Source: Sphingomicrobium aestuariivivum
GTDB lineage: Bacteria > Pseudomonadota > Alphaproteobacteria > Sphingomonadales > Sphingomonadaceae
Direction: 5' to 3'
Assembly (NCBI RefSeq): GCF_024721585.1
Contig: NZ_CP102629.1
Location: 1,426,001 to 1,490,000 of the forward strand
DNA: 64,000 nt
Shown here piece after piece: positions 41,053-50,090 of the stretch; the first letter of the stretch is position 1, and the number at the start of each line of letters is the position of its first letter. The translations under genes and the position numbers were made by a program. Under the pieces are notes generated by a model that made no database searches, was not told the DNA's origin, and was given only the letters and a program-made list of their open reading frames with translations.

Positions 41053-41936
41053 AGCATCATCTTCTCGATGGGCATGACGAGGATGTCCCGCGCGCCGGCG
41101 GCTTTGAGCGCCTCGAGCGTCTCCCAGAAGACCGATTCGCGGGCCACGGCCTGGATGGCGACATGGCCTTCCATCCCGAGGAGCGGCATCACCGTTGGTG
41201 CCTCGGCGCCCGGCAGGATGCGCGTAATCTCGGGCAGCGCGCTTTCGGGCGCGTTGAGGACGATATATTTGCTCTCCGCCGTCGCGATGACGCCGAGCAT
41301 CCGGGTCTTCAGCGCATCGGCGCGGTCGACCTGCTCGTCGGCGAGCGTCGCACGGGTGCGGATCAGCACGCTTTCCGATTCGAGGATCGTATGCACGGGC
41401 TTGAGGCCGTTGGCTTCCAGCGTCTGGCCAGTGGAGACGAGGTCGCAGACATAATCGGCGATACCGAGACGCGGTGCGAGTTCGACCGCCCCGTGCATGG
41501 TCACCACTTCGGCGCTAATCCCCTCCTTCTCGAGGAAGGCGCGGGTCAGCAGCGGGTAGCTGGTGGCGATGCGCTTGCCTTCGAGGAGGCCGAGCGACCA
41601 GTCCTCGGCGACGGGGATGGCGACCTTGAGCGCGCAGCCGCCGAAGCCGAGCCGCGCCAGCACGTCAACATCCTCGTTGGCGGGATCGAGGCGATATTCC
41701 TCGAGCACGTTCAACCCGACGATGCCGAGGTCGCAGACGCCATCACCGACCAGCGTCGGGATGTCGTCGTCGCGCACCAGCATGAGGTCGAGCGGGAAAT
41801 TTGTCGCGCGGGCAGTGAGCTGGCCCTTGGCGCTGCGGATGCGGAGCCCCGCCTTGGACAAGAGGCCCTCGCCCGCGTCGGCGAGGCGGCCCGATTTCTG
41901 TACCGCCATGCGCAGGCGGGTCATGGTCGCGGTCAT
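41049..41936 (-). CDS. hisG: ATP phosphoribosyltransferase, long form
   Basis: A 295-residue HisG, the first enzyme of the pathway. Motifs: RMAVQKSGRLAD, MLVRDDDIPTLV, DLGIVGLNVLEE, KRIATSYPLLTRAFLEKEGI, VCDLVSTGQTLEANGL. The last 80 residues form the ACT-like regulatory domain of the long form (LLGMEGHVAIQAVARESVFWETLEALKAAGARDILVMPIEKM), so it should be feedback-inhibited by histidine without HisZ. Many alphaproteobacteria use the short HisG with HisZ, so this form is unexpected. Its start overlaps the regulator stop (ATGA). Confidence 0.97.
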   Translation of the reverse strand: MTATMTRLRMAVQKSGRLADAGEGLLSKAGLRIRSAKGQLTARATNFPLDLMLVRDDDIPTLVGDGVCDLGIVGLNVLEEYRLDPANEDVDVLARLGFGGCALKVAIPVAEDWSLGLLEGKRIATSYPLLTRAFLEKEGISAEVVTMHGAVELAPRLGIADYVCDLVSTGQTLEANGLKPVHTILESESVLIRTRATLADEQVDRADALKTRMLGVIATAESKYIVLNAPESALPEITRILPGAEAPTVMPLLGMEGHVAIQAVARESVFWETLEALKAAGARDILVMPIEKMML

Positions 41937-42265
41937 TGGTCGTCCTTTGTCGTCGCGGCCAGCGCGGCGCGATAGCCGCCCGCATCACCGCCTTTGAGGA
42001 AACGCGCGACGCGCGTGATGGTGGTCGTCGACACGCCGGTCAGGTCGTGGATCTGGCGGTAGGTGTAGCGCTCCTCGGCGAGGAGGCGCGCGACGTGCCA
42101 GCGCTCGGCCAATGCGCGGCGCTCGGCTGGCGTACAGAGGTCGTCGAGCAGCATGGCGACGGCCTGCGGATCGCTGAGACGTGCAAGCACCAGCGCGAGC
42201 TGAGCCTGCGCTTCGGCGCGCGATTCGCCTGCCGCGCTTTGATCGTTATCCCGGATTTCCACCAT
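41933..42265 (-). CDS. TrpR-like (YerC/YecD family) regulator at the head of the his operon
   Basis: A 110-residue TrpR-superfamily protein: MLLDDLCTPAERRALAERWHVARLL, then an HTH, YTYRQIHDLTGVSTTTITRVARFL. It is the first gene of the his operon and is coupled to hisG by an ATGA overlap. TrpR-family repressors of histidine genes have been proposed in xanthomonads, so a histidine-responsive autorepressor is the likely role; this is inference. An 18-bp palindrome sits just upstream of its start. The ATG at 42265 (MVEIRDND) fits the family better than an upstream extension. Confidence 0.85.
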   Translation of the reverse strand: MVEIRDNDQSAAGESRAEAQAQLALVLARLSDPQAVAMLLDDLCTPAERRALAERWHVARLLAEERYTYRQIHDLTGVSTTTITRVARFLKGGDAGGYRAALAATTKDDQ

Positions 42266-42271
42266 ATTCTT

Positions 42272-42289
42272 GTTCCAACGTGTTAAAAC
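42272..42289 (-). promoter_or_regulatory. Candidate operator for the his operon regulator
   Basis: GTTCCAAC-GT-GTTAAAAC is an 18-base palindrome of the form GTTnnAACnnGTTnnAAC, seven bases upstream of the regulator start. A possible promoter on the minus strand is TTGCAA (42321-42326) and TACATC 16 bases on, which would put the palindrome across the early transcript start. Binding is inferred from symmetry and position only. Confidence 0.5.
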
Positions 42290-42390
42290 GCTGGCATGGA
42301 TGTAGCGATGTTCGTCGTGATTGCAAGACCGTCCGCCTACCGACTTTTTGCCGCTTGACGCCGGCCGGAAAATGGGGCTCTCTCGCATGC

Positions 42391-42459
42391 ATGCGTAAGA
42401 CCGCACCCGTTCACAGCCTCAATGCCGCTGCCCTGCAGTGGTGGTGGCGCTCGTCCTGA
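42391..42459 (+). CDS. trpL: trp leader peptide with three consecutive Trp codons
   Basis: A 22-residue reading frame, MRKTAPVHSLNAAALQWWWRSS, ending in TGA. Three adjacent TGG codons near the end are the hallmark of a transcription-attenuation leader. It lies 35 bases before a Rho-independent terminator and 119 bases before aroF-trpEGD(CF)BA. In known systems, ribosome stalling at the Trp codons when charged tRNA-Trp is scarce favours an antiterminator. The RBS is weak (a G-rich stretch upstream). Confidence 0.88.
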   Translation: MRKTAPVHSLNAAALQWWWRSS

Positions 42460-42494
42460 CGGCGGCGCTGCGCTCACGATTGACGTGAACCCAC

Positions 42495-42518
42495 AGCCCG
42501 CCACCGAGCGGGCTTTTT
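42495..42518 (+). terminator. Attenuator terminator of the aroF-trp operon
   Basis: AGCCCGC and GCGGGCT pair as a 7-bp stem around CACCGA, followed by TTTT. A competing antiterminator is visible: GGCGGCGCTG at 42461-42470 can pair with CAGCCCGCC at 42494-42502 (two 4-bp helices with a small internal loop), which destroys the terminator stem. The Trp codons of the leader lie just before the first strand, the classic arrangement. Confidence 0.85.
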
Positions 42519-42577
42519 CATGACCTCGATCAGGTCCGCTCTCCTTCTCCCCCCTTCGAGAACAAGAGACCCGACCC

Positions 42578-43591
42578 ATGATCATCGTAATGAAACCCGA
42601 CGCCAGCCAGGACACCATCGACCGCCTCCTCGGGCGGATCGAGGAAAAGGGCCTGAAGCCGCTCCACATGCCGGGCGCCGAACGCGTCGTCCTTGGCGCG
42701 CTAGGTGACGAGCGCGTGCTGGCCGAACTGGCACTGGAGGCGGAACCCTCGGTCGAGAGCGTGAAGCCGATCCTCGCCCCCTACAAGCTGGCCGCGCGCG
42801 ACCTCCACCCGCACGACAGCCGCGTGAAGGTGGGTGACGTCGCGGTGGGCGGCGGCCGCTTCGCCCTGTTCGGCGGGCCCTGCGCGGTCGAGGGCGAGGA
42901 GCAGTTGCGCGCCTCGGCGAAGGCGGCGAAGGCGGGCGGAGCGCGGATCCTGCGCGGCGGTGCCTACAAGCCGCGCACCAGCCCTTACAGCTTCCAGGGC
43001 AAGGGCCCCGAGGGCCTGTCGTTGCTCCGCGAAGTGGGCGACGAGCTCGGCATGCCGGTCGTCACCGAGATGGTCGATGCGCGCGACCTCGACCTCTTTC
43101 TCGAGGCCGCCGACGCCATCCAGATCGGCACCCGCAACATGCAGAATTTCGAACTGCTGAAAGCGGTCGGCCAGTGCGGCAAGCCGGTGATCCTGAAGCG
43201 CGGCATGGCGGCGCGGATCGACGACCTGCTGATGGCGGCCGAATATGTGCTGGCCGGCGGCAACGAGGATGTCATCCTTTGCGAGCGCGGCATTCGCACC
43301 TTCGAGACGGCGACGCGCAACACGCTCGACCTCGCCGCCGTGCCGCTGCTCAAGGAGAAGACCCACCTCCCCGTCATCGTCGACCCGAGCCACGGCACGG
43401 GCAAGCGCAGCCTCGTCGCGCCGATGGCGCTGGCGGCCGCCGCGGCGGGCGCCGATGGCGTCATGGTCGAGGTCCATGTCGATCCCGCCACCGCCTTGTC
43501 CGACGGGCCGCAGTCCCTCTATCCCGAGCAGATGGAGGCGCTCGGCCACCAGTTGTCGCGGCTGCTCCACGCGCTGGGCCGCGAGCTGTGA
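42578..43591 (+). CDS. aroF: 3-deoxy-7-phosphoheptulonate synthase (DAHP synthase), class I-beta with N-terminal regulatory domain
   Basis: A 337-residue enzyme for the first step of the shikimate pathway. An N-terminal ferredoxin-like domain (1-70: MIIVMKPDASQDTIDRLLGRIEEKG) is followed by a KDO8P/DAHP synthase barrel: FGGPCAVEGEEQL, LRGGAYKPRTSPYSFQG, DAIQIGTRNMQNFELL, VILKRGM, CERGIRTFE and VDPSHGTGKRSLV with metal His. It is the first structural gene after the Trp attenuator, so its expression should follow tryptophan. The trpE start overlaps its stop (GTGA). Confidence 0.94.
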   Translation: MIIVMKPDASQDTIDRLLGRIEEKGLKPLHMPGAERVVLGALGDERVLAELALEAEPSVESVKPILAPYKLAARDLHPHDSRVKVGDVAVGGGRFALFGGPCAVEGEEQLRASAKAAKAGGARILRGGAYKPRTSPYSFQGKGPEGLSLLREVGDELGMPVVTEMVDARDLDLFLEAADAIQIGTRNMQNFELLKAVGQCGKPVILKRGMAARIDDLLMAAEYVLAGGNEDVILCERGIRTFETATRNTLDLAAVPLLKEKTHLPVIVDPSHGTGKRSLVAPMALAAAAAGADGVMVEVHVDPATALSDGPQSLYPEQMEALGHQLSRLLHALGREL

Positions 43592-45093
43592 GCCATCTCC
43601 GCCTCCTCTCGCGCCGCCTGCCCGGCGTGCACGATCCGGTGAGCCTGTTCGCCGCGCTCCATGCCGAAGGGCGTGCGCGGATGCTGTTCCGTCGCACCGG
43701 CGGGACGAGCGTCATCCTGTGCGACAGCGCGCTGGCGGTCGATGCCAAGGGGCGCGAGGCCGAGGTGCGGGTGGCGGGCGCACAGGGCGCCGCACTGCTC
43801 GATCCGCTGCTCGCGCCGCTCTCCGCACAGGTCGTGGAGCGCGACGGCGAATCGGCTCGGCTCGTCTTCGACGCGCCCGACGAAAAGGGCGATGAGGGCG
43901 AGCGCGGCCGACGGACTAGCCCGCTGCATCTCTTGCGCGCCGCCGCGGCACTCGGGGCGGACGAGGATGACGCCTACGGGCTCGCGCTGTTCACGCTCAT
44001 TGGCTTCGATCATGCCGACATGGTCGAGAGCATCGCGGTCGCCGCCCCCGAAGGCCCGCTGCCCGACCTCGTCGCACGTCTCGCCGAGACGCTGGTGGTC
44101 GTCGAGGCCTCGGGCGCTGCACGGGTGCTCGCCATCGCCGCCGTCACCGGTGAGCGCGGGGAAGATCACCGCCTGTCCTGCCTCGCGCAGGAGAAGCTCG
44201 GCAAGCTCGCCGCGCGGATCGAACAGGCACCGGTGCCGCCGCTTCGCGAAGCGGTCGCAGGCGCGCCGTCGGTCGATATGGATGACTTGGACTTCGCCGC
44301 CACGGTCGAGGCGTTGCAGGGCGAGATTGCCGCAGGCGAGATCTTCCAGGCGGTGCCGAGCCGCAGCTTCTCCCTCCCCTGTCCCGACGCCCTCGGTGCC
44401 TTCCGTCGCCTCGTCGCCGCCGACCCCTCGGCCTACCAGTTTTTCGCCGAAACCCGCCACGGCACGCTGTTCGGTGCCTCGCCCGAAAATGCCATCGCGC
44501 TCGAGCCCGGCGCGGACGGGGTTCGGCTGTCGGTCAGCCCGATCGCGGGCACCCGTCCGCGCGGCGCCAGCGCCGACGAGGACGACCGGCTCGAGGCCGA
44601 GCTCCGGCTCGATGGCAAGGAAGTGTCCGAGCATCTCATGCTGGTCGACCTTGCCCGCAATGACGTCGCCCGCATCGCGCGGCCCGGCACGCGGCGGGTG
44701 ACCAGCTTGATGCGGGTCGAACGCTTCGCCCGCGTCATGCACATCGTCTCGACCGTCGAGGGCCTGCTGCCGGAGGGTCGCGATGCGGTCGATGCCATCC
44801 GCGCCTGTCTCAACGTCGGCACCCTGTCGGGCGCGCCCAAGCTGCGCGCCATCGAGCTTGTCCGCCGTCACGAAGCGACGCAGCGCGGCTTCTATGGCGG
44901 CGCCATCGGCGTCCTTACCGGACGCGGCGCCTTCGACAGCGCGGTGGTGATCCGCTCGGCCTTCGTGACCGATGGCATCGCCCGCGTCCGCGCGGGCGCC
45001 GGCGTGGTCGCACATAGCGATCCGGCCGCCGAAGCCGCCGAAACGCGCGCCAAGGCAAGCGCGGTACTGGCCGCGCTGGGAGCGGCGGCATGA
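43588..45093 (+). CDS. trpE: Anthranilate synthase component I
   Basis: A 501-residue chorismate-using enzyme. Catalytic segments: IFQAVPSRSFSLP, LFGASPENAI, SPIAGTRPRGASADEDD, DGKEVSEHLMLVDLARNDVARIA, MHIVSTVEGLLPEG, TLSGAPKLRAIELV and GFYGGAIGVLTGRG. These read like the enterobacterial TrpE group. The LLES feedback motif that binds tryptophan in E. coli TrpE is not conserved; the aligned stretch is MLFRRTGG. It works with TrpG, which overlaps it by four bases. The start is the GTG at 43588. Confidence 0.95.
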   Translation: MSHLRLLSRRLPGVHDPVSLFAALHAEGRARMLFRRTGGTSVILCDSALAVDAKGREAEVRVAGAQGAALLDPLLAPLSAQVVERDGESARLVFDAPDEKGDEGERGRRTSPLHLLRAAAALGADEDDAYGLALFTLIGFDHADMVESIAVAAPEGPLPDLVARLAETLVVVEASGAARVLAIAAVTGERGEDHRLSCLAQEKLGKLAARIEQAPVPPLREAVAGAPSVDMDDLDFAATVEALQGEIAAGEIFQAVPSRSFSLPCPDALGAFRRLVAADPSAYQFFAETRHGTLFGASPENAIALEPGADGVRLSVSPIAGTRPRGASADEDDRLEAELRLDGKEVSEHLMLVDLARNDVARIARPGTRRVTSLMRVERFARVMHIVSTVEGLLPEGRDAVDAIRACLNVGTLSGAPKLRAIELVRRHEATQRGFYGGAIGVLTGRGAFDSAVVIRSAFVTDGIARVRAGAGVVAHSDPAAEAAETRAKASAVLAALGAAA

Positions 45094-45689
45094 AGTTCAC
45101 CGTGATCGACAATCGCGACAGTTTCACCTTCAATCTCGTCGATGCGCTTGCGGTCGCGGGGGCCGAAATGCAGGTGCTTCGCAATAGCATCAGTGCGGAA
45201 AAAGCGCTCGAAAGCGCCAATGGCGGCGCGCTGCTCCTTGGCCCTGGCCCGGGCGATCCGGCGAGCGCGGGCTGCTGTCTCGACCTATGCGTGAAGGCGC
45301 GCGGCATTGTCCCGCTGATCGGCATCTGCCTCGGCCACCAGGCCATCGTCGAGGCCGCCGGCGGGCGCGTTCGCCGCGCCGCCGCGCCCGCCCATGCCGA
45401 AACCGCACGGCTCGCCCATCGCGGCGACGGCGTCTTGGCGGGGCTGCCCGATCCGCTGATCGTCGGCCGCTATCATTCGCTCTGCACCCCTGTCTCCGAC
45501 CTGCCCGCGCGATTCGCCGTCGATGCCGAACATGGCGGCATGGCGATGGCGGTGCGCGACGAAGCCGGCCTCCAGCTCGGCCTGCAATTCCATCCCGAAT
45601 CCATCCTCACGCCGCGGGGCGACCGGCTCGTCGCCAACATGCTTGCATGGGCGAAAGCCTGTCTCGACCGCCCCGCCAAAGCCGCCTGA
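45090..45689 (+). CDS. trpG: Anthranilate synthase component II (glutaminase)
   Basis: A 199-residue class I glutamine amidotransferase supplying ammonia to TrpE. Motifs: VIDNRDSFTFNLVDAL, LLLGPGPGDPASAG, nucleophile LIGICLGHQAIVEAAGG, GRYHSLC and QFHPESILTPRG. It is a separate protein, not fused to TrpD as in E. coli; this matches the Vibrio-type arrangement. Its start overlaps the trpE stop. Confidence 0.95.
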   Translation: MKFTVIDNRDSFTFNLVDALAVAGAEMQVLRNSISAEKALESANGGALLLGPGPGDPASAGCCLDLCVKARGIVPLIGICLGHQAIVEAAGGRVRRAAAPAHAETARLAHRGDGVLAGLPDPLIVGRYHSLCTPVSDLPARFAVDAEHGGMAMAVRDEAGLQLGLQFHPESILTPRGDRLVANMLAWAKACLDRPAKAA

Positions 45690-45699
45690 AAGGACCAAC

Positions 45700-46746
45700 A
45701 TGCTCGATAAAGCCCATCTCCCCGCCGATCTCGGCCCCGTTCCCAACCCGCTGCCCAAGCTCCTGTCGGGCGAGGACCTGCCCTCGGAGGACGCGCAGCA
45801 CCTGTTCGAACGGCTCGTCCTCGGGCGGCTGTCCGAAGCCGAGATCGCAAGCGTGCTGGTGGCGCTGCGCATGAAGGGCGAGACCGCCGAGGAGATGATC
45901 GGCGCGGCGCGCGCGCTGGGCGCGGCGGCGGAGGAGTTTCCCTCGCCCGACACGTTGTTCGCCGATTGTTGCGGCACGGGCGGCGATTCCTCGGGCATCA
46001 TCAACGTGTCGACCGCGGCGGGGTTCGTCGCCGCGGCCTGCGGGCTGCCCATCGCCAAGCATGGCAACCGCTCGGTCAGCTCGAAATGCGGTTCGGCCGA
46101 CGTGCTCGAGGCGCTGGGCGCGCGGATCGACATGCCCGCCGACGAGGCGCGCGCGGTGATGGACGCGACCGGCTTCACCTTCCTCTACGCCCCCGCTTAC
46201 CATCCCGGCATGAAGCATGCGGGCCCCGTGCGGCGGCAACTCGGCGTGCGCACGGTGATGAACCTGCTCGGTCCCTGCATCAATCCGGCGCGCCCGAGGG
46301 TCCAGCTCCTCGGCGTGGCCGATCCGACGCTGATGCGCCGCATCGCGCGGACGCTCCAGGCGATGGGGGTCGAGAAAGCGCTGGTGGTGCATGGCGCAGG
46401 GCTCGACGAACTTGCACTGCACGCCGACAGCCGCGCGCTGCGGCTCGAGCATGGCGAGATCAGCGAGGAAGTGATCGCGCCCGAGGAAGTCGGTCTCGAC
46501 CCCGCGCCGCTGAAAGCGCTGGCGGGCGGCGATGCGCAGGAGAATGCGCGTCGGCTGCGCGCCATTTTCGAGGGCAAGGGATCGAAGGCCGAACGCGACA
46601 TGGTGGCGCTCAACGCAGGGGCGCTGTTGCACCTTGCGGGCACTTCGCGCACCTTGGCGCAAGCGGTCGAGGCGGCAGGTGCCGCGATCGACGGGGGCAA
46701 GGCGGGGGCCGTGCTCGCCGCTTATGTGGAGGCAAGTCATGGGTGA
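45700..46746 (+). CDS. trpD: Anthranilate phosphoribosyltransferase
   Basis: A 348-residue enzyme transferring phosphoribose to anthranilate. Motifs: LFADCCGTGGDSSGIINVSTAAGFVAAACGL, IAKHGNRSVSSKCGSADVLEALG, YAPAYHPGMKHAGPVRRQLGVRTVMNLLGP, INPARPRVQLLGV. The KHGNRSVSSK and LFAD-GTGGD pattern resembles enteric TrpD. AAAGGA is eight bases upstream of the ATG. trpCF begins inside its last codons. Confidence 0.95.
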   Translation: MLDKAHLPADLGPVPNPLPKLLSGEDLPSEDAQHLFERLVLGRLSEAEIASVLVALRMKGETAEEMIGAARALGAAAEEFPSPDTLFADCCGTGGDSSGIINVSTAAGFVAAACGLPIAKHGNRSVSSKCGSADVLEALGARIDMPADEARAVMDATGFTFLYAPAYHPGMKHAGPVRRQLGVRTVMNLLGPCINPARPRVQLLGVADPTLMRRIARTLQAMGVEKALVVHGAGLDELALHADSRALRLEHGEISEEVIAPEEVGLDPAPLKALAGGDAQENARRLRAIFEGKGSKAERDMVALNAGALLHLAGTSRTLAQAVEAAGAAIDGGKAGAVLAAYVEASHG

Positions 46747-48115
46747 CGTTCTCGACAGGATTATCGCGCGTAAGCGGCGCGAGGTGGAGGAGCGGCTAGG
46801 AACACGCCGCTTCAACGCCCAGCCGACGACGCGGAGCCTCTCGCAGGCGCTGCGCAAGCCCGGCGCGCGCTTCATCATGGAGGTAAAGCCCAAATCACCC
46901 TCGGGCCATGTCGCGGCGCATCGTCCCGAAGAGGCGCTCGCCGCCTATCGCCCCGTCGCCGATGCCATCAGCATCCTCACCGACGAGGCGGATTTCGGCG
47001 GTTCGCTCGCGCTGCTCGAACGGCTGCGCAAGGATTATGGCGGGCCGATCCTCGCCAAGGATTTCATCGTTGACCCGCGGCAGGTGGACGAGGCGCGCTC
47101 CTGCGGCGCCGATGCCGTGCTGGCGATGATGTCAGTGCTCGATGATGCCACCGCCGGGCAAGTCATGGAGCGCGGCCGCGCGCTTGGCATGGACGTGCTG
47201 GTCGAAGTGCATGACGAGGCCGAACTCGCCCGCGCGATGGCGCTCGGCGCGACCCTCGTCGGCATCAACAATCGCGATCTCAAGACACTCTCCACCGACC
47301 TTGCCGTGACCGAACGGCTCGCACCCCTCGTGCCCGGGCATGTCACGCTGGTTTCCGAGAGCGGCATCTCCACCTTTGCCGATGCGCAGCGGCTCGGGCC
47401 GCTGGTCGACGGTTTCCTCGTCGGTTCCGCGTTGATGGCGGCCGACGACATCGCCTTTGCCGCGCGCACGCTGGTCCACGGTCCCGTGAAGCTGTGCGGC
47501 ATGACACGGGTCGCCGACGTCGCGCTGGCGGCTCGCCAGGGCGCGAGCCACGTCGGCTTCATCTTCGCGCCCGGCACGCCGCGCGCGATCGACGTCGAAC
47601 GGGCGCGCACGCTGACCATGCTGGCCTCCGATTTCGGCATGAAGACCGTCGGCGTGTTTCGCGGCCGCGACCCCGAGGCCATCGCCGAGGCCAGCCGGAT
47701 CCTGCGGCTCGACGCGGTCCAGCTCCACGAGCCCGGCGCCGACACAATCATCGCGCAACTGCGGCAAAAACTTCGCCCCGGCACCGAATGCTGGGCGCTC
47801 TCGCAGGTCGGCGAGCAAGGGCCCGACCCCGTGCCGCTGGCCGACCGCACCCTGTTCGACACGCTCGTGGGCGGCTCGAGCGGGGGCACCGGAATCGCTT
47901 TCGACTGGAGCCGGATCGCGGGGCGCGACGACCTTACCCGCGCCTTCCTCGCTGGCGGCATCGGTCCGGACAATGTCCGCGAGGCCGTGCGTACCGGCGC
48001 TTATGGCATCGACGTCTGCTCTGGCGTCGAGAGCGAGCCCGGGACCAAGGACCCCGAGAAGATCGAAGCGCTGTTCGCCGCGCTGCGCCATCCCGACCGC
48101 CGGAGTGCGCGATGA
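46739..48115 (+). CDS. trpC: TrpCF fusion: indole-3-glycerol-phosphate synthase / phosphoribosylanthranilate isomerase
   Basis: A 458-residue fusion, close to the 453 of E. coli TrpC. Residues 1 to about 255 are [60 protein letters not shown] and VSESGIST. From about 258 comes Trp[47 protein letters not shown], and [15 protein letters not shown]. Both active sites look complete. Alphaproteobacteria normally have separate trpC and trpF genes. It overlaps trpD by eight bases and trpB by four. Confidence 0.95.
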
Positions 48116-49296
48116 GGCAGGACGGCCGTTTCGGCGATTTCGGCGGTGCCTATGTTCCGGAAATCCTCGTTCCCGCGATCGAACAGCTCGAGGCCGCCTA
48201 TCTGGGCGCGATGGAGGACAAGGGCTTCCTGGCCGAGCTCGACCATCTCCTGCGCACCTATGCGGGGCGGCCGACCGCGCTGACGCGGTGCCGCAATATC
48301 GGCGATGAACGCGTTCGGCTCTACCTCAAGCGCGAGGATTTGCTCCACGGGGGCGCGCACAAGACCAACCAAGTGATCGCGCAGGCCCTTCTGGCGAAAC
48401 GCATGGGCAAGACGCGGCTGATCGCCGAGACGGGCGCGGGCCAGCACGGGGTGGCGACCGCCATCGCGGGCGCGCTGTTCGGGATGGAGACGCGCATCTA
48501 CATGGGCGCGCTCGATGCCGAGCGTCAGGCGCTCAATGTCTTCCGGATGAAGCTGATGGGCGCCGAAGTGATCCCCGTCGAGATCGGCAGCCGGACCCTG
48601 AAGGATGCGGTCAACGAGGCGCTGCGCGACTGGACCGCGAGCTTTGCGGACACCCATTACCTCCTCGGCACGGTGGCGGGGCCGCACCCCTTCCCGCAGA
48701 TGGTGCGCGATTTCCAGGCGGTGATCGGCCGAGAGGCGCGCGCGCAGATGCTGGAGCGCGAAGGGCGCCTGCCCGACAGCGTCATCGCCTGTGTCGGCGG
48801 CGGGTCGAACGCCATCGGCATGTTCCATGAATTCGTGCCCGACGAGGGCGTCGCGCTGGTCGGCGTCGAGGCTGCAGGCAAGGGCATGGACAGCGGCGAG
48901 CATGGCGCGACCCTCCAGAAGGGGCGTCGCGGCATCCTCCATGGCGCCGAGACCTATCTCATGCAGGACGATGTCGGACAGGTCGGCGAGAGCTGGTCGG
49001 TCTCGGCCGGCCTCGACTATCCCGCCGTCGGCCCCGAGCATGCACATCTGATGGCCTCGGGACGCGCCACTTATGTCGGCGCGACCGATGCCGAGGCCAT
49101 CGCGGCCTTCCAGCGGCTCGCGCGTGAGGAAGGGATCATTCCTGCGCTCGAGACCGCCCATGCTCTCGCCGAAGGGTTCAAGCAGGTCGATGCCGCACAG
49201 GCTGTGGGCGAGGAGAAGATCATCCTCGTCAACCTGTCGGGGCGCGGGGACAAGGACATGGCGCAGGCCATGGAACTGGTGGGTCTCGCCGCATGA
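48112..49296 (+). CDS. trpB: Tryptophan synthase beta chain
   Basis: A 394-residue PLP enzyme condensing indole with serine. Motifs: [41 protein letters not shown] with the PLP lysine, [58 protein letters not shown]. The GMDSGEH form is typical of the major TrpB1 group. Its ends overlap trpCF and trpA as ATGA. Confidence 0.97.
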
Positions 49297-50090
49297 GCAG
49301 CCAACGATATGGAAAGATGTTCGCCCGGCTCGACGCGGCGGACGAGGGGGCGCTGGGCGCCTTCCTGATGCTCGGCGATCCCGATGCGGCAACCAGCGTC
49401 GAATTGCTCCACGCCTGCGTCGAAGGCGGCGCCGACATGCTCGAGGTCGGCATTGCCTTCTCCGATCCCGTCGCCGACGGGCCGGTCATCCAGGCCGCCG
49501 CCGATCGCGCGCTCGCAGCGGGCATGACGCCTGCGGCCTCCTTCGGCATCATCGCCGAAGTCCGTGCTCGCCATGCCGACGTGCCGATCGGGATCCTCAC
49601 CTATGCGAATCTCGTGGTGGCGCGGGGATTGGACGCCTTCTGCCGCGATGCCGCCGGAGCGGGGGCGGACAGCCTGCTCGTCGCCGACGTGCCCAGCCTC
49701 GAAGCGCCCCGCTTTGCCGCGGCGGCGCGGGCGGCCGGGCTCGACCTCGTGCTGATCGCAGCGCCCAACACCGGCGACGCCGCGCTCGAGCGGATCGCCG
49801 AGCTCGGCTCGGGCTACACCTATTGCGTGGCGCGCGCGGGCGTGACGGGACAGCGCAGCGACATGGCGCTCGACCATGATGCGCTGTTCGAGCGATTGCG
49901 CGCGCTCGGCGCACCGCCACCAGTGCTGGGATTCGGCATCTCCACCTCCGAGCAGGTGCGCGCCGGCATCGAGTCGGGCGCCGCGGGCGTCATCTCGGGT
50001 AGCGCCATCGTCGCGGCAGCGCAGGGTACCGACGATCCGGTGGCGGCGGTGCGGTCACTGGTCGCCGAGCTGAAGTCGGGGACGCGTTAG
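49293..50090 (+). CDS. trpA: Tryptophan synthase alpha chain
   Basis: A 265-residue TIM barrel that releases indole from indole-glycerol phosphate. The catalytic Glu is in [10 protein letters not shown] and the Asp in [18 protein letters not shown]. Other segments: [60 protein letters not shown]. These are close to the enteric TrpA. It is the last gene of the trp operon and converges with the DUF2721 gene (four-base overlap). No terminator was seen. Confidence 0.96.

Follow-up and report, generated by a model that had tools for sequence, protein, structure and literature searches.

In Escherichia coli, the trpL leader combines a peptide carrying tandem Trp codons with 1:2, 2:3, and 3:4 hairpins and a U-run, and the whole trp pathway lies downstream of it. 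In Sinorhizobium meliloti, only one of the three trp operons, trpE(G), is described as attenuated (PMC7298713). Classical attenuators are also described before the trp operons of Corynebacterium and Streptomyces, and C. diphtheriae has two trp units under attenuation (PMC1262725); the main text of that account contains no occurrence of DAHP, aroF, aroG, or aroH. E. coli AroH is a Trp-tuned DAHP synthase isoenzyme belonging to the TrpR regulon (PMC5343134), and on contigs from the Sargasso Sea a DAHP synthase gene was thought to be co-expressed with trp genes in three cases (PMC2395257), in a main text that does not contain the word leader. Among open-licence papers searched by title and abstract, none reported Trp attenuation upstream of a DAHP synthase gene or in any sphingomonad.

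Here, we analyzed a stretch of 64,000 nucleotides from Sphingomicrobium aestuariivivum (the window), for which an earlier note had proposed a Trp-leader attenuator in front of aroF and the trp genes. We conclude with high confidence that a classical ribosome-mediated Trp-leader attenuator controls a single aroF-trpEGD(CF)BA transcript.

Anatomy and predicted folding of the leader

The genes downstream of the leader were assigned with NCBIfam models and lie on the plus strand in the order aroF-trpE-trpG-trpD-trpCF-trpB-trpA. The first, aroF (42578–43591), encodes a type I-beta DAHP synthase that scores above the NF006421 and TIGR01361 cut-offs. It is followed by trpE (43588–45093), for anthranilate synthase component I, whose best matches are trpE models at scores below their curated cut-offs and whose start we chose as a GTG overlapping aroF by 4 nt. 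Next come trpG (45090–45689; anthranilate synthase component II, TIGR00566), trpD (45700–46746; TIGR01245), a trpCF fusion (46739–48115; NF006945), trpB (48112–49296; TIGR00263), and trpA (49293–50090; TIGR00262), all above the cut-offs of the models named. Neighboring genes either overlap or are separated by a 10-nt gap.

Upstream of aroF, a plus-strand leader ORF of 22 codons (42391–42459) runs from an ATG at 42391 to a TGA stop at 42457–42459 and encodes the peptide MRKTAPVHSLNAAALQWWWRSS; it is recognizable from the sequence, from the relatives, and in the uniform scan described below. Inside it, TGG-TGG-TGG at 42439–42447 provides three consecutive Trp codons, the candidate control codons. 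Three Trp residues in a row occurred in one of 422 short ORFs (10–50 codons) counted in the window, a count that does not include the leader ORF itself, since the reading frame of the leader extends upstream as far as a GTG and so spans 59 codons. The Trp codons lie in the 5′ arm of a predicted 1:2 hairpin (42439–42476; −17.6 kcal/mol), a fold that competes with the antiterminator. The latter pairs region 2 (42461–42470), its 5′ arm, with region 3 (42494–42502), its 3′ arm, with a folding energy of −21.4 kcal/mol that counts in an inner hairpin at 42474–42488; this inner hairpin is backed by folding, by hairpins that relatives have in this position, and by compensatory changes in one alignment of eight sequences. 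Region 3 overlaps the 5′ arm of the 3:4 hairpin, a predicted intrinsic terminator (42495–42514; −13.0 kcal/mol) that runs into a T-run at 42514–42518; the whole element (42495–42518) emerges from folding and from the alignment of relatives and is also listed by a consensus scan of the window. Because region 2 begins 2 nt past the stop codon, a ribosome at that codon would cover it. The adjacent Trp codons, the mutually exclusive hairpins, and the T-run had all been pointed out in the earlier note, and sequence and folding agree with them down to the exact coordinates.

By its anatomy and its recurrence in relatives, described below, the leader is a classical ribosome-mediated Trp attenuator, and we infer stalling, termination efficiency, and the response to Trp from these features. 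Transcription would begin at the leader AUG or immediately beside it, a position estimated from promoter spacing. With charged Trp-tRNA plentiful, the ribosome would reach the stop codon and mask region 2, region 3 would then pair with region 4, and transcription would end at 42514–42518. With charged Trp-tRNA scarce, the ribosome would stall on TGG-TGG-TGG and mask region 1; region 2 would then pair with region 3, no terminator would form, and transcription would read through into aroF and all of the trp genes. Folding calculations with a ribosome in place make the antiterminator and the terminator of the window leader exclude each other: the computed terminator probability was 0.97 with the ribosome at the stop codon and 0.00 with the ribosome stalled at the first Trp codon. 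Over 36 leaders, the terminator probability averaged 0.43 in the stalled state, against 0.94 with the ribosome at the stop and 0.83 when no ribosome was placed. These folding states, together with the comparative evidence from relatives, uphold the mechanism that had been proposed for the leader.

Two features of the equilibrium calculations qualify the picture. In the absence of a ribosome, the window leader favors the antiterminator (0.71) over the terminator (0.19), whereas most relatives do the opposite, so equilibrium folding predicts read-through of an untranslated window leader. In the stalled state with region 4 present, the terminator probability still exceeds 0.5 in 17 of the 36 leaders, and for those kinetics must be invoked.

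We also compared folding with shuffled controls. When stalling at the first Trp codon was modeled, an average of 8.9 bases of region 3 and its loop were paired upstream over the 36 leaders. Shuffling the spacers lowered this to 6.4, moving the ribosome to the stop lowered it to 4.4, and ribosome-free RNA gave 7.5; the difference between the stalled state and the shuffles gave a Wilcoxon p of 6e-11 over 36 leaders that, as relatives, are not independent of one another. Leader by leader, the antiterminator reached p 0.05 against shuffled spacers in only 9 of 36, with a value of 0.07 for the window. Region 2 pairs with part of the leader ORF, as expected of a 1:2 hairpin, with a mean probability of 0.60, and the spacer hairpin had a mean z of −1.83 against shuffles, with p 0.05 reached in 17 of the 36 leaders. 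For the window leader as a whole, the folding z-score was −2.26, and 4 of 200 shuffles were equally low.

The Rfam Trp_leader model (RF00513) matches 42436–42521 end to end at a lax threshold, with 36.0 bits (E 5.1e-6 for 281 bases). As this falls below the gathering cut-off of 41 bits, we claim the functional anatomy of a Trp leader and no accepted membership of RF00513. Among six relatives compared with the model at E up to 1, three scored 35.6, 32.3, and 27.6 bits (L034, L036, and L055), all under the cut-off, and the other three (L044, L063, and L076) gave no Trp_leader match; a gathering-level Rfam scan of the window and 10 loci returned nothing besides tRNAs. These scores suggest that the Trp_leader cut-off misses alphaproteobacterial cases. 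Assignment to another known RNA family was considered and rejected, the next Rfam matches having E values of only 0.67 and 2.

Recurrence, covariation, and the promoter region

To describe relatives uniformly, we scanned for a short ORF encoding WW or W.W followed by a terminator within 160 nt. The set comprised 37 aroF loci, the window plus 36 fetched loci, which took in every strong aroF locus found in the genus apart from the one in G508, where aroF is cut by the contig start, together with those of two sister genera (G053 and G044). Matches were found upstream of aroF in 36 of the 37, and the single miss (L050) starts 113 nt before aroF yet shows a terminator. Separate trpD-trpCF-trpB-trpA units behaved similarly, with a match before 21 of 22 and, before the remaining one (L083), a leader whose Trp codons are separated, as judged by eye. 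The aroF loci, 429,347 bases read on both strands, contained seven other matches, three of which are the leaders of neighboring trpD units (L053, L067, and L068), and a control of 155,895 further bases from other loci, also on both strands, gave six, two of them at one place. A chance Trp triplet was rejected on these control rates, which are far too low.

A terminator that acts at a fixed level, with incidental Trp codons, would also produce a G+C-rich hairpin followed by a T-run, and such a hairpin is indeed present by itself. We nevertheless consider this extremely unlikely: the tandem Trp codons occupy a fixed place in nearly all of the aroF loci and trpD units just described against four unrelated matches in 429 kb, and the antiterminator shows compensatory changes in one alignment of eight sequences. 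In that alignment (A2), whose structure was derived from the same eight sequences, 89% of antiterminator cells are paired and the covariation score is 0.313, values each reached by none of 500 shuffles and none of six slid versions; both partners are altered in 7 of the 16 antiterminator pairs, a number matched by 2 of 500 shuffles. In the terminator, the 36 leaders have G-C at pair 122/146 in 19 cases and A-U in 12. RNAalifold recovered the terminator and not the antiterminator from the 36-leader alignment, found no structure when that alignment was cut before region 4, and recovered neither the antiterminator nor its inner hairpin from an alignment of 11 sequences (A3). The spacers are too divergent to align, and the covariation of the antiterminator therefore comes from A2. 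The covariation check that had been suggested came out in favor of one terminator pair across 36 leaders and of the antiterminator across eight, and not of the antiterminator across 36 or 11.

Strong aroF matches were present in 36 of 71 Sphingomicrobium genomes, of which 53 are at least 90% complete, and strong trpE matches were present in the same 36; one further genome (G489) has a 60-residue trpE fragment and no aroF. The closest named relative is Sphingomicrobium astaxanthinifaciens JCM 18551, whose AroF is 96% identical to that of the window and whose locus (L119) has this leader as well.

As a candidate promoter, a −35-like TTGACG (42355–42360, plus strand) lies 36 nt upstream of the leader ATG and is followed 17 nt later by a weak candidate −10 box, CTCTCT (42378–42383), whose position would have transcription begin at the ATG or right beside it. 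The −10 box is poor, and a promoter consensus scan of the window found no promoter. TTGAC (or TTGAT/TTGAA) lies 35–37 nt before a leader start codon in 33 of 36 aroF leaders, the exceptions being L048, L051, and L069, with the first of two adjacent ATGs taken as the start in L038 and L039 and a GTG in L056. Among trpD leaders, the spacing from a TTGAC-like motif to the start codon is 35–37 nt in 13 of 19 and 35–39 nt in 18 of 19. Transcription that begins with the start codon itself would give a spacing of 35–37 nt, and the leader mRNA is thus probably leaderless, as in Sinorhizobium. Elsewhere, 375 leaderless mRNAs are described in Caulobacter (PMC4117421).

The same spacing would fit a leaderless small mRNA that acts mainly in trans, as RNA or as peptide, with attenuation in cis secondary; the precedent is rnTrpL/peTrpL of S. 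meliloti, where rnTrpL starts at the trpL ATG and works in trans (PMC7298713). Judged by eye, the peptides differ widely among leaders outside their Trp codons, and the parts that are conserved are accounted for by the anatomy of an attenuator, so we regard a mainly trans-acting leader as extremely improbable here.

Beside the promoter, and divergent from the operon, lies a gene of the TrpR family (41933–42268, minus strand), which raises the question of whether a Trp-binding repressor is the true regulator. Its match to the TrpR model has an E value of 1.8e-8, yet the score of 34.7 bits falls short of the TrpR cut-off (67.25 bits), and the gene does pass the YerC/YecD cut-off. It stands directly before hisG, at the head of his genes, in 14 of the 16 loci where it was found, the exceptions being L046, where the locus ends, and L072. 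A palindrome, CCAACGTGTTAAAACGCTGG, lies at 42275–42294 just before the gene. Of 12 loci, only the window, L034, L036, and L072 have a palindrome at this place, and it is about 60 nt from the trp −35. Control of the operon by such a repressor is very unlikely in our judgment, and attenuation remains the reading that we follow; from their sequence and setting, the YerC/YecD-like gene and the palindrome may perhaps be a His-responsive repressor and its operator.

Operon forms and aromatic supply

The aroF loci occur in two arrangements. Thirteen of the 37 have the whole operon, 23 lack trpD after trpG in the fetched stretch, and one (L042) is cut by the contig end, so the whole-pathway operon described at the outset holds for the window and is not universal in the genus. 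The separate trpD units that we fetched carry Trp leaders of their own. Where the operon is whole, trpG and trpD are separated by no more than 27 nt in all 13 cases, which leaves no room for a second leader.

A tree of TrpD-TrpCF-TrpB placed three whole operons in one well-supported group; the remaining ten fall in a weakly supported group (85/68) that also takes in four genomes lacking aroF-trpE-trpG, and the split forms are outside. The fork above this second group has no resolution, and one or two origins of the whole operon both fit. Three rows from family f2 are labeled noEG in the tree, though at least G167 of that family has trpE-trpG-aroF elsewhere. The four genomes in the (85/68) group that lack aroF-trpE-trpG have retained the leader before trpD. 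Taken together, the forms suggest, short of proof, that two attenuated units merged into the whole operon.

Partial pathways also occur. Twelve genomes that are 99–100% complete retain trpCF without trpE, and of 15 trpE-less genomes checked, six have no chorismate-binding enzyme and nine have one, probably PabB. Twelve near-complete genomes without aroF-trpE-trpG (G348, G351, G384, G283, G371, G239, G256, G145, G268, G299, G280, and G334; L070–L073 and L078–L085) have kept a Trp leader and trpD-trpCF-trpB-trpA; judging from gene content, they could make Trp only from anthranilate supplied from outside. The first five of these have no chorismate-binding enzyme. The first six, together with G378, have neither a class II DAHP synthase nor a type I-beta AroF, and a type I family search gave one match in each (none in G371), probably a KDO-8-P synthase; entry into the shikimate pathway seems to have been lost in these seven, as far as their sequences tell.

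The window genome, 2.35 Mb in one contig, also encodes a class II DAHP synthase, so the aroF product is probably a second, Trp-linked isoenzyme. A class II enzyme was found in 12 of 20 genomes of the genus tested, and in G309 its gene (G309:C1:2016128–2017159) is located within 1 kb downstream of the trpA in a leader-bearing separate trpD unit (L074). G436 has no class II enzyme, and a type I family search of this genome found AroF and one second protein only, which we take, on weak similarity, to be a KDO-8-P synthase; the only recognized DAHP synthase of G436 would then sit under a Trp leader.

A wider reading of these arrangements is tentative, and we think it somewhat unlikely to hold as a whole. 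It says that the attenuated aroF is the only DAHP synthase in some species (G436), where Trp-tRNA would gate the supply of Phe, Tyr, and folate; that the whole operon arose from two attenuated units with the loss of one attenuator; and that the lineages that lost aroF-trpE-trpG keep an attenuator over a partial, anthranilate-fed pathway. With whole, split, and partial versions carrying their own leaders in one genus of small genomes, Sphingomicrobium offers a usable natural series for the merging, keeping, and loss of operons and attenuators.

Distribution outside the genus and comparison with known systems

A close AroF of this type was found in 4 of 149 genomes of the family (G000, G077, G053, and G044), and among 385 genomes of the class eight, G000 included, match AroF at E 1e-60 or better. 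A full-length fused TrpCF was matched in 28 of 396 genomes of the order, comprising 24 Sphingomicrobium, G053, and three of family f2. In that family, G167 and G176 have trpE-trpG-aroF with aroF last (L228 and L229); the uniform scan found no leader at the trpE start, with one match about 1.3 kb upstream in L229. The trpD-trpCF-trpB-trpA unit of family f2 (L086–L088) has a Trp leader.

Other genera of the Sphingomonadaceae were sampled at trpE, using the 30 best-scoring loci from 89 genomes searched. A leader match within about 1.5 kb before trpE was found in one of the 30 (L110). For the first 20 of them, stretches of about 5 kb before trpE held no credible Trp leader: the single match on the trpE strand (L203) falls where a long ORF begins and does not resemble a leader, and two more matches are on the opposite strand. 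The statement that full Trp attenuation of a trp operon is not standard in this group fits the sampled Sphingomonadaceae but not the genus itself, in which the leader precedes aroF wherever the locus extends far enough upstream. As far as these sequences indicate, then, the attenuator is constant in the genus where aroF occurs and unusual in having a DAHP synthase as its first target.

Looking for a source of the aroF-trp cluster outside the order, we examined the best 80 of 284 AroF relatives for flanking trp genes. Five had one (L119, L120, L121, L122, and L160), and the first three of these belong to Sphingomicrobium. L122, from a metagenome-assembled genome labeled Planctomycetota (NORP233), has aroF-trpE-trpG-trpD with an AroF 63% identical to that of the window, and no Trp leader was found before its aroF.

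The locus appears to be a lineage-specific case in which Trp attenuation governs the committed aromatic step together with the whole Trp pathway. It is like E. coli trpL, the type case of RF00513, in its tandem Trp codons, its 1:2, 2:3, and 3:4 hairpins, its U-run, and the whole pathway downstream, and differs in having a DAHP synthase as the first gene, a probable leaderless start, a score under the Rfam cut-off, and a neighboring TrpR-family gene that by the model cut-off is not TrpR. With S. meliloti trpLE(G) it shares the character of an alphaproteobacterial Trp attenuator, and a leader mRNA that starts at the leader ATG, as described there (PMC7298713), is probable here; in contrast to S. 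meliloti, Trp leaders precede either the whole pathway with aroF or each of the two separate units. The attenuators of Corynebacterium and Streptomyces are alike in kind, in bacteria unrelated to the host of the window. For E. coli AroH the link to Trp is made through a repressor, whereas for aroF of the window it would be made by attenuation inside the trp transcript, and the Sargasso Sea contigs have their aro gene beside trpA, whereas aroF of the window is the first gene of the operon.
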